The position numbers were made by a program, and so were the translations under genes. Below, one piece after another: positions 1,555 through 63,630 of a DNA stretch of 64,000 nucleotides. The notes under the pieces were generated by a model. The model saw only the letters and a program-made list of their open reading frames with translations, was not told the DNA's origin and did not search any database. The stretch is from Nannobrachium achirus. Its lineage: Eukaryota > Chordata > Actinopteri > Myctophiformes > Myctophidae. The DNA is taken from NCBI GenBank assembly GCA_963921795.1, contig OY997661.1:35862970-35926969 (forward strand), written 5' to 3'. Each line of letters starts with the position of its first letter. The stretch's first letter is position 1.

Positions 1555-1739
1555 AAATGTTCGCTTAAAAAAATACAAATATTCAAAGATTTGCACACAT
1601 TTTCACGACTTTTCAAAAATAGCAGATCTACAAGCTGTGAGCATGTATATCTGCTATTTTTCAATAGCTAAAGTATAAAATAATGAAGGCCCCTCCACCT
1701 TGGGCCCTGGTAACTCAGTCCCACTTTTCCCCGCCCCTG
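1555..1739 (+). mobile_element. hAT-like MITE B, 3' fragment with hairpin module
   Basis: This is the terminal third of family B. A hairpin module lies at 1615-1661, with arms AAAATAGCAGATC and GATNTGCTATTTT and its tip reduced. The B-specific tail follows (caatagctaaagtataaaat, then ggcccctccaccttgggccc) and ends near gcccctg. The 5' half and the terminal gtgacg motif are missing, so the copy is truncated. Full B copies lie at 8977-9506 and 41851-42376. Confidence 0.8.
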
Positions 1740-1932
1740 CAAGGCATGCAAATCTCACAACGTCCCATCACTAATTTCTAGGTGTGTTCCAGTAAGTGAG
1801 AGCGTGTGTAATGTATGTTAAATCCATACAGGCAGATGACAGCCGGCCAACTCACTGGACTCAATGTGAACCTGCCTCACCATTGTCCCTCTATTTATAT
1901 CTCTCTGCAATTACATACACATCTGGATACGA

Positions 1933-2124
1933 TCTCTCTCTCTCTCTCTCTGTGTGTGCGTGTGCGTGTGCGTGTGCGTGTGTGTGTGTGCGCGCGTGCG
2001 CATATAGATATAAATGCTGACACAGGATTTTCAGAGAGTGTGTGTGTGTGTGTGTGTGTGTGTGTGTGTGTGTGTGTGTGTGTGTGTGTGTGTGTGTGTG
2101 TGTGTGTGTGTGTGTGTGTGTGTG
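1933..2124. repeat. Compound microsatellite (TC)n, (TG)n, then (TG)43
   Basis: A (TC)n run at 1933-1951 passes into interrupted (TG/CG)n to about 2000. After 40 bp a pure (TG)43 array fills 2039-2124. Open frames here encode only Cys-Val or His-Thr runs and are not genes. Confidence 0.97.
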
Positions 2125-2670
2125 GAGGGGGGGATTCGGATAACAGAATGACAGAATGAAGAACAGAGGGATACAAATGTATACGTGCGCGCGTGCGTGC
2201 GTCTGGCAGTAATAGAGATATAATGAGTCACACTGCATAGTGAGGTTGTGTCTTGAAAATAACGACAAAGAAACATAGCTGCGTGACTTTTATGAAGTTA
2301 TGGTGGTCGGCTGATCATGATTTACCCCCGATTCCCATAATATCCTCCTCTGTTGTGTGTGTGTGCGCGCGCACGTGTGTGTGTGTGTGCGTGTTACTAT
2401 ACTTGTGAGGACCAAACGTCGTACGTTGAGGAACCATTTTCCTGCAGGTCGTAACAAGCTGTTTATCATTGACAAAGATTTGTAGTGTGGTCTACAATTA
2501 CGAAAAAAAGGTTCAGGTTGGGGTTAGCGTTTCGATTAAGACATTTAAGAGGTTAGGTTCAGGGCTTGGAATCATTGCGATCTTGTGGATCGACAATCTT
2601 TCAGCTTTATAGCGTTACGGTAAATGGCGAGAGATAACATCGGAGAATGGGAACTCAGTTGAAACTCAGT

Positions 2671-2853
2671 GGCTGCGGTTACATGGACAATATTTATTCA
2701 TTCAGAATGAACTAATTCTGAACAGAGATTCATACCCAACTGTTTACATGGATCAGACCTTCCATTCTAGAGATGTTCACATGAGCATTTATATTCTGAA
2801 TGAGCAGTCATTCTGAATGCAAGTGGAATATAGGTGTCCATGTAAACGCAGCC
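2671..2853. mobile_element. MITE V with ggctgcggttacatgga termini
   Basis: The segment starts ggctgcggttacatgga and ends with the inverse motif tccatgtaaacgcagcc, giving terminal inverted repeats of about 17 bp with one mismatch. The 183-bp interior repeats a cattctgaatgaac-like motif in both orientations. The trinucleotide agt borders both ends and may be a 3-bp target duplication. Superfamily not assigned. Confidence 0.7.
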
Positions 2854-2860
2854 AGTGAGT

Positions 2861-3150
2861 TAGGCACGTGCACACATAGACATCAAAGGGAGCTTGAGCC
2901 CCTGCCCTTTTATCTGCCTGTAAAAAGTGCCCTTTCCAGACCATGAATGCAGTTTTTACTATGGCGAAAGAAATGCAAAGGCCCTCTTTCCATGCCATAC
3001 CTGAAGGCAGCATTCAAGAGAATTGCCTTGTCCAAACTCTCTTGAACTTGAATGCAGCATCTTATGCTGAAATCAAGAAATGTGTAGAAAGCAAGCATCG
3101 GAGATAGCCGACCTCCAAGCTCACAACGTGTCGCAGTGCGACGCATTGAG
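2861..3150 (-). mobile_element. hAT-like MITE A, truncated copy
   Basis: It begins with a diverged A terminus (aggcacgtgcacacatag) and carries the A-specific interior, read on the minus strand. The hairpin arm gccgacctccaagctc and its self-complementary tip gtcgcagtgcgac (3130-3142) are present. The element stops just after the tip, so the second arm and the cagggacgtgcagag terminus are missing. Confidence 0.85.
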
Positions 3151-3229
3151 CACCACTGAAGTTCTGGTTCCGCCTCATAGTGGAAAAGGGGCTTAAGTAA
3201 TTTCATTTAAGTTTCAATTTCAGTTTTCA

Positions 3230-3406
3230 TGTAGGGGCGGGGGGGCTTCCTTCTTCCTCCTCAAGGAAGACACAGGGATACTGGGAAAACTAGGGGAAAA
3301 CACTCCAACACAGGGAAAAACTCACAGAACAAAATACTCAAGGACTAGAAATACTTACTTGGAAAGACAAGGTTTAACCACGACACGACGTTGAACTGAA
3401 ACACAA
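3230..3406. other. AC-rich dispersed repeat, possibly LTR-derived
   Basis: Short direct motifs (acacagggata, acacagggaaa) recur and lead into the long AC array. Sequence on the far side (3520-3610, acacaggtgaactca) resembles 12240-12320 (gacacaggtgaactcaac). Possibly one dispersed family, perhaps LTR-derived, but I cannot define its ends. Confidence 0.3.
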
Positions 3407-61096: not shown

Positions 61097-61194
61097 ATCT
61101 ATGTAGCAGCATGGCCCTGGACATCCCGGGGGCCATATGAACCCTGCTGGATGTATACTCCCATTATTTACTCAATGACAAAGTCATTTTCTTT

Positions 61195-61262
61195 TCAAAC
61201 TTATCTTCACAACTTTTTTTCCACACGTTGTGAGCTTGTAGATCTGCAATTTTTTGCTGCTC
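61195..61262 (+). repeat. Hairpin module, right half
   Basis: cacacgttgtgagcttgtag, then atctgcaatttttt (61223-61256). Host family not recognised. Confidence 0.65.
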
Positions 61263-61469
61263 CCACTTGGTGTATAGGCTGAAAAAGTGTACTCCCAAGT
61301 ACAGTGCAACTCAGGTCTGTTTTATTAAGTGTAAGTGGTTAGACTGAAGTGAGATGGATACATTCCAAACATTATCAAAATATCCTGAGGCACCCCTCAA
61401 CTTACGTCACGCCACCTGCTTTGGGAAACCCTGCTAGTCACTCATGTTCCCTTTTCCACCAAATGAACT

Positions 61470-61891
61470 TTGAAATGAAAATGTGTGCAAATCTTTGAAT
61501 GTGTGTATTATTTAAGCGTAGGCCTACATCTGTAACTAAAATGTTGCTTCTGATGGGGGGTCTCTGGAACTAAATGTTTTGAGATGGGTATCCGTCGCCA
61601 AATACATATCATTTTGGGGGTCCTTCACATGAAAAAGTTTGAGCAACACTGACATAGAAACATAAAAAACCTAGAAGGACATGAAATATTCTATAAGCTC
61701 GCATCAGCGCGGCACTCGGTGCCAAGCTTGTATATCTGATATTTTTCAATAGTTAAAGCACACAATCATGAGTAATAATGCATTCCCAGTCCAAATGGGT
61801 TAAACCCCCTCCCCCTATGAAGAACATTCATGGTGGGGGGCCCGAAGTGAATCCTTGTACCCAGGGCCCAGAATTTGGTGTGACACCCCGG
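61470..61891 (-). mobile_element. hAT-like MITE B, one end lost
   Basis: gaaaatgtgtgcaaatcttt to ttggtgtgacacccc. The hairpin (61694-61746) keeps the tip gcgcggcactcggtgcc and its right arm. Confidence 0.85.
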
Positions 61892-62218
61892 CTGGTTCTG
61901 CTCTAGACTCACTCTGCATTCACAGAACCCTGTCAAATGCATCATGGGAATCTGGGCTGATTGACTGGCACACCGATCCGAAAATCATCCAGGGCGGCGG
62001 CGGTGGTGGTGTAAGGTCATGACCTGCACGCACGGCGAAGGAAGGAAAAAAAAGATAGGGAATTCTCAGCGTTCCCCATTTTCCTTTCTTTTTTTTTTGC
62101 GTTTTGTCTGAACGGTCTGGGAGCGCTGACAAGGAACCGCCGGCCCGTTCCAAAACCAACATCCTGCTCTGTCTGTACCACTGTCCTCAACGCCAAGGCC
62201 TTTCCACCAAGCGTGCTG
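61892..62218. other. No gene recognised
   Basis: Two short inverted pieces (ggaattctcagcgttcccc etc.) only. Frames here run into the next array. Confidence 0.35.
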
Positions 62219-62264
62219 TGTGTGTGTGTGCGTGCGTGCGCATGCGTGTGTGTGTGTGTGTGTG
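62217..62264. repeat. Imperfect (TG)n microsatellite
   Basis: TG with central cgtgcgtgcgcatgcg. Confidence 0.94.
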
Positions 62265-62404
62265 GTGTCCTGAAAGCCAAGGGCTTTCCATAGACAGGGG
62301 GTGGGGATGGGGGTTACAGAAACTTGGATAGCAATGAGAGAGGGGATCGAAACAACCCACCCACACACCCGCCCCGCCTGCCTGCCCGGCCGATACCGCC
62401 CGTG

Positions 62405-62930
62405 CAGGGGTGGAAAAGTACTCCTATTTTTACTTTAAGTATCAATACATCAATGTAGAAACACTTTAAAGCAGTCTTCAACGTTTTCAGGTCAAGGACC
62501 CCTTAGTTGAGAGAGAGATGAAGCAGGGACCCCCACAACTTTTTAATAGATTCATTCATAGATACTATTCATAGATAGTTTCATTGACAGCACAATCAAA
62601 TTGTCAATTTGTGTTTTCAGATATAGTACGTATTTAACCACTTAACCGTCAATACTTAACTTGATTTCACTCTGTACTTAGTCTGCATGCTCTTTTCCCC
62701 CTCTACACCAGCTTGTAGATCGGCTATTTTTGGCTAAAGTTCTCAGAATATGGATGCTAGGATTCAAGTGGTTAATATAAAAAAAGGAGAAAAAAAGTTT
62801 CTATCACACAAAGATTTGGAGGACCCCCTAGGGGTCCCAGACCCCCTGTTGAAGACCATTGCTTTTAAGTACAAAGGTATTGGCATCTAAATGCACTTGA
62901 AGTATACCAAAATTAAAGTAGTATCATGGT
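62405..62930 (+). mobile_element. MITE E split by C
   Basis: caggggtggaaaagtactcc up to acactttaaag (62405-62471), then cttttaagtacaaaggtatt to aagtagtatc after the C insertion. Confidence 0.75.
62472..62861 (+). mobile_element. hAT-type MITE C, complete, TSD ctttaaag/cttttaag
   Basis: 390 bp, ends cagtcttcaacgttttcagg and gttgaagaccattg. The flanking 8-mers differ at one base. Hairpin reduced to its right arm (cagcttgtagatcggctatt, 62709-62728); the left arm is missing after ctctacac. Confidence 0.9.
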
Positions 62931-63630
62931 AAAAAACGTATGCGTATGCCGAAACACATGCCAAAAAACGCATACGTTGCTCTGTGGCGTGCCATGCCAA
63001 CTTATAGACTTAAATAAAAGTGCCTTAAATGACAGTTTCTTGAGTTCTGGTATTCTCTTTTAGAGATTTTCTTGTAAAAGTTACTTTCCTGACGTGCACC
63101 TGTTAAAAATGCTCAGAGAAGTGGAGATGAATTTGAGTCGTGCTTGCTTCCTTGATGTAAAAAAAAAAAAAAAAAACACTTGAAAAAAGCAGCTCACAAC
63201 GTGTCGCTCTTTTCCCCCTCTAGTCTAGGCCAAGGATGTACCACCCCTGTTATAGCAGCACCTGATGACGGATCGTTGCAAAACACATGTTTTTTCCAAA
63301 CCTCATGCAAATCAGCACACATGATCTCTATGGTGTGTGATCAAGATTGGTGGTCTTGTCAAATTTTTCCATTATTCCATCCCAATTGTCTAAGATTGAC
63401 TTCCAAAGCTTGCGGGAGTGGCCCGTTTTGCACAAAATGATTGTCCGATTGCTGTGAAACCCTGCACGCACATTCCCACTAGGCCATGGATGAAATGCCA
63501 CGCAATTCATTCTCGGTCTCATGGTGCATGGCGTTATAACGGAACAATCACGTTTTGGCCTTAACTCTTTGGCTGTAGTTCATGAAATCAATAATAAAAC
63601 AAAATAAATAGCCCTGGATTCCTTTGGATC
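62931..63630. other. No gene; Helitron-like body piece
   Basis: gaaaaaagcagctcacaacg and tgtcgct (63182-63209) is a hairpin remnant. 63400-63560 (ttgctgtgaaaccctgcacg, catggtgcatggcgttataac) resembles the Helitron units at 50160-50260. No exon. Confidence 0.45.

Follow-up and report, generated by a model that had tools for sequence, protein, structure and literature searches.

How does one short palindrome come to lie inside many transposable elements whose ends are unrelated? We addressed this question in a 64,000-nucleotide stretch of the genome of the myctophid fish Nannobrachium achirus (contig OY997661.1, positions 35,862,970 to 35,926,969; hereafter the window, with a G+C content of 43.9%). 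An earlier note on this DNA had considered the palindrome either a small mobile element of its own or a core exchanged by recombination among hAT families. Our analysis favours a core shared by miniature inverted-repeat transposable elements (MITEs) over an independent transposon. We lean, on balance, towards the explanation that this internal core, common to several MITE families, was spread by DNA repair and template switching and was amplified by the transposases of its hosts.

The palindrome as a single 73-bp unit

The arm AAAATAGCAGATCTACAAGC matched the window 48 times with up to three mismatches (21 forward, 27 reverse), whereas 20 first-order shuffles gave a mean of 0. Throughout the genome (1,658,514,493 bases in 564 contigs), the 20-bp arm gave 677,846 matches with up to two mismatches (338,919 + 338,927), whereas the reversed-pattern control gave three (2 and 1). 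The exact two-arm pattern occurred 41,515 times forward and 41,327 times in reverse, with 0 in the control; because a single unit may score on both strands, this corresponds to roughly 41,500 to 82,800 units.

Our detailed sample of 288,160 bases comprised the window, eight 3-kb loci around arm matches, and twenty 10-kb stretches from one fixed position on each of the contigs C1-C20. A half-arm profile (E<=0.05) detected 204 half arms and 60 palindromes in this sample, of which 114 half arms and 32 palindromes were located in the fixed-position stretches. The 60 half arms in the window form 18 paired palindromes and 24 single arms, close to the 17 complete and about 25 half copies counted previously, and all 17 listed palindromes are in their places, those at 33271, 46104, and 57766 being visibly decayed.

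The unit is 73 bp long and consists of two 35-bp arms and a 3-nt loop, with one conserved mismatch. Both arms are nearly complete in 51 units; 23 of them are exactly 73 bp long, and the host elements A, B/Y, C, E, G, H, and I are all represented among these 23. The mismatch, at pair 10/64, is present in seven of nine full-length representatives chosen by hand from seven host groups. Since its asymmetry spans different superfamilies, the whole unit has been inherited rather than re-grown from one half, and the palindrome is one unit of single origin. All three units tested have calculated folding energies between about -56 and -62 kcal/mol, with z scores from -13 to -16. Rfam models gave no match within the window at the gathering score, viral contigs contained no exact match to a 20-mer from the unit, and a literature search turned up no description of the 73-bp unit, which is not proof of absence.

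Host elements of the unit

The units and hosts located in the window are the following:

1615-1661: shortened unit in a B-type host
9048-9120 (+): full 73-bp unit, left of two in a B-type element
9349-9421 (+): full 73-bp unit, right of the two in the same B-type element
9157-9506 (+): B-type host sequence, right end of CAGGGGCGTC type (minus-strand reading)
13513-13895 (+): host A (hAT-like, CAGGC..TCCCTG), flanks AAACCAAG/AAACCAAG by eye, with a collapsed unit at 13786-13825
15185-15614 (-): host A copy of 430 bp, flanks gcgcagtg/gcgctgtg (7/8), unit at 15255-15318
15844-16342 (+): host E (hAT-like, CAGTGGTGGAA..TTACACCACTG, 499 bp), flanks cccacctc/cccacctg (7/8), full unit at 16025-16097
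20122-20378 (+): host C (CGTC..GACG type ends), flanks AAAT/AAAT, full unit at 20227-20299
22226-22260 (-): single half arm, one of the 24
31027-31061 (-): half unit in a host H fragment
31692-31944 (+): host C copy that carries a full-length unit at 31801-31873; with the boundaries used here, its flanks form no exact 4-bp duplication
32232-32620 (+): host K, left end CAGGGGTGGGCAACTTTG, right end not fixed; its unit at 32354-32413 has a 10-bp symmetric extension, CAAAAGAAGC/GCTTCTTTTG
33270-33342: decayed unit whose left-flank motif TTAACCAC..GGCTAT is common to 52306, 16063, and 8377
33460-33897 (-): host A copy with its unit at 33531-33603; by eye, the flanks of the copy are CGGTAAAG/CGGTAAAG
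35611-36004 (+): host D (hAT-like, 394 bp), flanks ccctaaac/ccctaaac, containing the TTAA-bounded stretch Z with a shortened unit at 35811-35871
37690-37757: two half arms in opposite order, tail to tail
39436-39492: B-type half unit joined to the left part of a host A copy
46084-46194: host G segment, a 111-bp inverted repeat around the unit at 46106-46175
46681-46737: shortened unit in a B-type host
48687-48749: shortened unit, flanks outside the host-library assignment, E-like by eye
51053-51267 (-): host C copy, unit at 51125-51197, flank bases agreeing at 3/4
57764-57836: decayed full-length unit outside the host-library assignment
59572-59627 (-): shortened unit in a host A fragment

The 204 outward flanks fell into 26 clusters with at least two members, plus 51 singletons, and the unit lies in about eleven groups of hosts that differ in their ends and target-site duplications. 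A host library with 12 groups assigns 115 of 133 unit loci, and 65 of 78 in the fixed-position sample, both figures being upper bounds because self-matches of library members are included. Of the 18 loci left unassigned, 15 consist of half or tandem fragments, and the remaining three are full units without a TA duplication.

Hosts A, D, E, H, J, and K bear CAG- or CAC-type hAT-like ends. Target-site duplications of 8 bp were observed only for hosts A, E, J, and the outer D element (D 8/8 twice, J 8/8, A 7/8, E 7/8; A also 8/8 twice by eye). Host C instead has ends of the CGTC..GACG type: among 15 copies with both ends, eight show an exact 4-bp duplication, compared with 3.1 for shuffled partners, and none shows the exact 8-bp duplication typical of the hAT superfamily. 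Host Y is a TTAA element, and in host D the unit lies inside Z, itself within the outer hAT-like element, a D relative lacking Z being recognisable by eye at L016:8999-9062. For host H, with the ends CAGTGGTTCTCA, no convincing duplication was found in the two copies with both ends. As previously proposed, then, the palindrome recurs as a core in families of elements whose ends are unrelated, and their duplications differ as well; the description of the hosts as hAT-like with 8-bp duplications applies to A, D, E, and J, but not to C (about 4 bp), Y (TTAA), or the unit of D in its TTAA-bounded Z.

The flanks of A, C, H, J, and K are unlike one another, in agreement with the completely different contexts once claimed, but B, E, and D/Z share some flank: the one-sided motif TTAACCAC..TATACTTTGGCTAT is common by eye to B, E, D/Z, and the unit at 33271, and an inner flank is common to B and Y. 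These shared flanks are what one would expect if all hosts had diverged from a single family and kept a homologous core. We consider such a common descent highly improbable, as ends and duplication lengths differ, hosts with 4-bp, 8-bp, and TTAA duplications contradict it, and J and C share just 6-8 flank bases per side; when tested, homology of the flanks failed across A, C, H, J, and K. Some hosts are thus linked, yet A, C, H, J, K, and Y do not form one family, and the hosts as a whole are not hATs alone.

At hAT-transposase loci, of which we examined 10 among 150 scored matches, seven of the 10 had no arm match at E<=0.05. At one of the sampled loci (L031), an element bearing a transposase has split an H-type MITE, and two unit copies lie outside the insert; C-like sequence lies near a hAT transposase at three others (L036-L038), and a further transposase locus (L039) ends on the right like host D but gave no match to the arm. 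A common inner sequence beside the single arms was also considered and rejected, the matches being mostly tandem copies or known hosts.

Copies without the unit and one clean insertion

The unit could itself be a minute mobile element with MADE1-like back-to-back terminal repeats, which inserted at TA inside other elements and was then carried along. Its constant ends are consistent with this origin, as is TA flanking both arm ends in C, I, and some A copies; this arrangement is absent in H, G, and K, and in most hosts the flanks at the unit borders are inverted rather than direct repeats, so the short duplication considered earlier at the palindrome borders may apply at most to C, I, and some A copies. 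Host C has 134 near-empty copies. Nine of the 100 listed have the form GTCGCACAAAAGTAGTTTAAATC.., either a TA or TAGT site as it was before insertion, which the independent element would leave, or the product of plain slippage deletion between TAGT repeats; single rows also resemble TA-G-TA and TA-C-TA footprints. The other 91 are varied, ragged remnants. With identical exact anchors, host H yielded 141 near-empty against 1,642 filled copies, and one microhomology joint is common to six of the 100 listed near-empty copies. Candidate empty sites in C, H, and K relatives (loci L029 and L030) were rejected, the near-empty forms being mostly ragged deletions. The units appear to have been lost mostly through ragged, microhomology-type deletion.

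The one clean insertion lies in a tandem array, apart from any recognised MITE: a 54-bp truncated unit (positions about 6-59) with the 24-bp direct repeat GTTGAAACCACGCCCACTCGTTAA on either side. The filled form occurs at L026, on contig C18, and at other places; the uninterrupted empty site was found at two places on contig C15, with 97% identity over 118/118 bases and without the insert or the second repeat. Of 77 rows found with the filled form, 38 match its right part and 37 its left part, at many regularly spaced places, so that this is a single event multiplied along with the array. As the insert lacks both unit ends, no end-recognising transposase explains it; we infer a capture at a staggered break with 24-bp overhangs, by repair rather than transposition. 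The array itself, around L026:3725-3900 and on contigs C18, C13, C2, C15, C12, and C9 of the assembly (G000), recurs every ~12-33 kb, and four loci of the array (L026, L041-L043) gave no RNA gene match in Rfam.

This empty site slightly raises the case for spread by repair and lowers that for an independent element. The sole clean insertion of a solitary unit is truncated at its ends and flanked by a 24-bp duplication, the unit-less forms of C, H, and K are ragged without a uniform empty site, and the unassigned loci are mainly fragments, their three full units lacking a TA duplication. We therefore consider a mobile element of its own improbable, and the first of the two earlier proposals is not supported.

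Stem covariation, loop inversion, and symmetric extensions

Between hosts, the two sides of the stem have changed together. Among the nine representatives, two-sided change occurs at 12 of 35 pairs, with 18 cells against a shuffled mean of 4.7, a number reached by none of 500 shuffles; the set includes two host A and two B-type representatives, so that some of these cells are counted twice. Sliding the partner along gave 0 to 6 two-sided cells. A comparison of seven host consensuses or single copies showed 85 one-sided and 78 two-sided differences, 71 of the latter being paired in both. Within hosts, decay was one-sided or two-sided in the proportions 14/0 for C, 14/0 for B, and 11/3 for H. 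In 34 full-length H copies, picked by eye among 100 listed of the 1,642 and with 27 of 35 pairs visible, we counted 90 one-sided and three two-sided changes, where 4.2 two-sided changes would be expected.

The loop occurs in both orientations. The same 34 H copies have AAC in 19 and its reverse complement GTT in 11, with the commonest mismatch on the same side in both, and seven C copies have GGT or GAT in five and ACC in two. The arms also extend outward as inverted repeats by a mean of 2.37 bases, versus 0.80 for flanks taken from different palindromes. The median symmetric extension is 5 for H (n=7), 4 for C (n=10), 3 for A (n=5, including L024:4384, which we think is misassigned), 10 for K (n=1), and 5 for I (n=1), and it is 0 in 18 other units, most of them taken as B/Y. 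Three identical H copies at G000:C1:3789086, 3916100, and 4370651 have a re-matched outer stem, GACTATAGGATC/GATCCTATAGTC, with several compensations together and without the conserved mismatch.

Multiple compensatory changes, stem extension, and inverted loops are described as expected traces of template switching in RNA stems (PMC8794818). The loop inversion and the host-specific symmetric extensions of the unit match this prediction. Template switching across the hairpin would re-match the arms, flip the loop, and copy a few flank bases to the opposite side.

Alternatively, the hairpin might be kept by selection because it aids the multiplication of its carriers, as a binding site, a replication DNA hairpin, or an RNA hairpin, and families acquiring it would win. 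This idea agrees with the conserved mismatch, with the very stable calculated folds of the three tested units, and with stem covariation, which is seen when families are compared but not among dead copies. Hosts C and J further suggest a two-step change, from U-A in most hosts through U-G in many J copies to C-G in C. However, template switching can yield covariation without selection (PMC8794818), the proposed function derives from sequence and calculated folds, and a D-related transposase locus has no intact unit in its 3.2 kb. We regard selection as a possible but rather unlikely main cause, although it may act alongside the spread by repair.

Probable exchange between families

Host J (hAT-like, with a gtgtataa duplication in one copy) has 564 exact copies of the arrangement GAAGTAGT-unit-ACTAGTTTGGG, whereas the arrangement in host C, whose duplications are of 4 bp, is AAAGTAGT-unit-ACTAGTTTAAA. 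Both hosts thus surround the unit with AGTAGT..ACTAGTTT, with 6-8 flank bases alike per side. Such a shared flank between otherwise unrelated hosts would be expected if a stretch longer than the unit had been copied. By eye, many of the listed J copies match TAGC on one arm with GCTG on the opposite arm, and the resulting U-G pair is intermediate between U-A, found in most hosts, and C-G, found in host C. The segment at 39436-39492 is a chimeric joint at a palindrome, between a B-type half unit and host A. Of the earlier idea of core exchange among hATs by recombination, the exchange fits our data best, but the hosts are not all hATs.

Comparison with known systems

Angel elements of fish are likewise short repeats that can form strong hairpins; they are known as a family with its own ends, not as a core common to several. 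Nested MITEs and the Tol2-like and Charlie-like hAT MITEs of fish offer a comparison for the hAT-like hosts. In ordinary MITE nesting, the guest brings its own ends and duplication, whereas here neither is constant.

The closest precedent is the coral CMITE group, in which six MITE families with different terminal repeats have a 75-bp core in common (PMC2872659). This core is more conserved than the termini, its origin is given as unknown, tandem arrays occur, and about 1,600 copies were estimated in one species; CMITEs are all TTAA, piggyBac-like elements (PMC2872659). The core lengths are similar, and an internal region common to MITEs with different terminal repeats is found here as well. 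TTAA with CCYT-type ends throughout is not, only Y and Z being TTAA; moreover, our unit is a hairpin, spans 8-bp, 4-bp, and TTAA hosts, and amounts to hundreds of thousands of arms, whereas the CMITE core is not called a palindrome in the sections of the description covered. The primate MADE1 element is a near-perfect palindrome of ~80 bp with two 37-bp repeats and a 6-bp loop (PMC1784062), and thus resembles the unit in size and in its paired repeats around a short loop. MADE1 is, however, a mariner MITE in its own right, whereas our unit is found almost wholly inside other elements.

Other features of the window and the sampled loci

A Kelch-repeat coding stretch at 27896-29018, in two overlapping frames and with Kelch domain-containing protein 3 as its closest solved relative, looks like a broken, perhaps intron-less copy. 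The open stretch at 40876-41466 resembles the end of a fish reverse-transcriptase gene of a long interspersed nuclear element; it had no Pfam match. Long inverted-repeat elements without the unit, 77-93% self-complementary, lie at 3736-4368, 38106-38709, 47341-47603, and 56242-56669, and CA/TG repeats are very dense in the whole window (e.g., 55794-55965 and 44869-45033). Among the sampled loci, a ~30-bp tandem array has grown from inside a D-type MITE (L002:70-1250), and minisatellites of about 25 and 88 bp contain the palindrome arm (L004:597-744 and L022:5850-6170).

A proposed spread of the shared core by repair

In the explanation we prefer, broken or replicating DNA would be repaired with palindromic DNA as filler or template, so that the unit spreads between elements, and within each host it would be copied along by that host's transposase. 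Several observations weigh against it. No transfer from MITE to MITE was caught with its before and after states, and the sole clean insertion is truncated and outside any recognised MITE. The unit ends are nearly constant across hosts, contrary to what random capture predicts, and both the TA at the arm ends of C, I, and some A copies and the nine near-empty C copies of TA/TAGT form are as a TA-target element would give. If the arms are re-matched by template switching, retention of the mismatch calls for a further explanation, and the B and Y units are without symmetric extension. A bolder combination, in which the 73-bp hairpin is a selfish module below the transposon level that moves by repair and template switching, has its fold held, boosts its carrier MITEs, and fed the growth of DNA transposons in this genome, is speculative, and we would think it unlikely.

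Our analysis suggests that DNA repair allows transposon families to acquire an internal part and to hold it in common. The usual practice names MITE families after their ends and treats the interiors as leftovers, whereas here a folded interior unites elements with differing ends and duplications. The filled and unfilled cases, inverted loops, and compensated stems provide material for testing template switching and hairpin function. If such a common interior is borne out, consensus-based annotation would wrongly link unrelated families, new MITE families could be assembled from shared parts, and palindromes could travel by repair.

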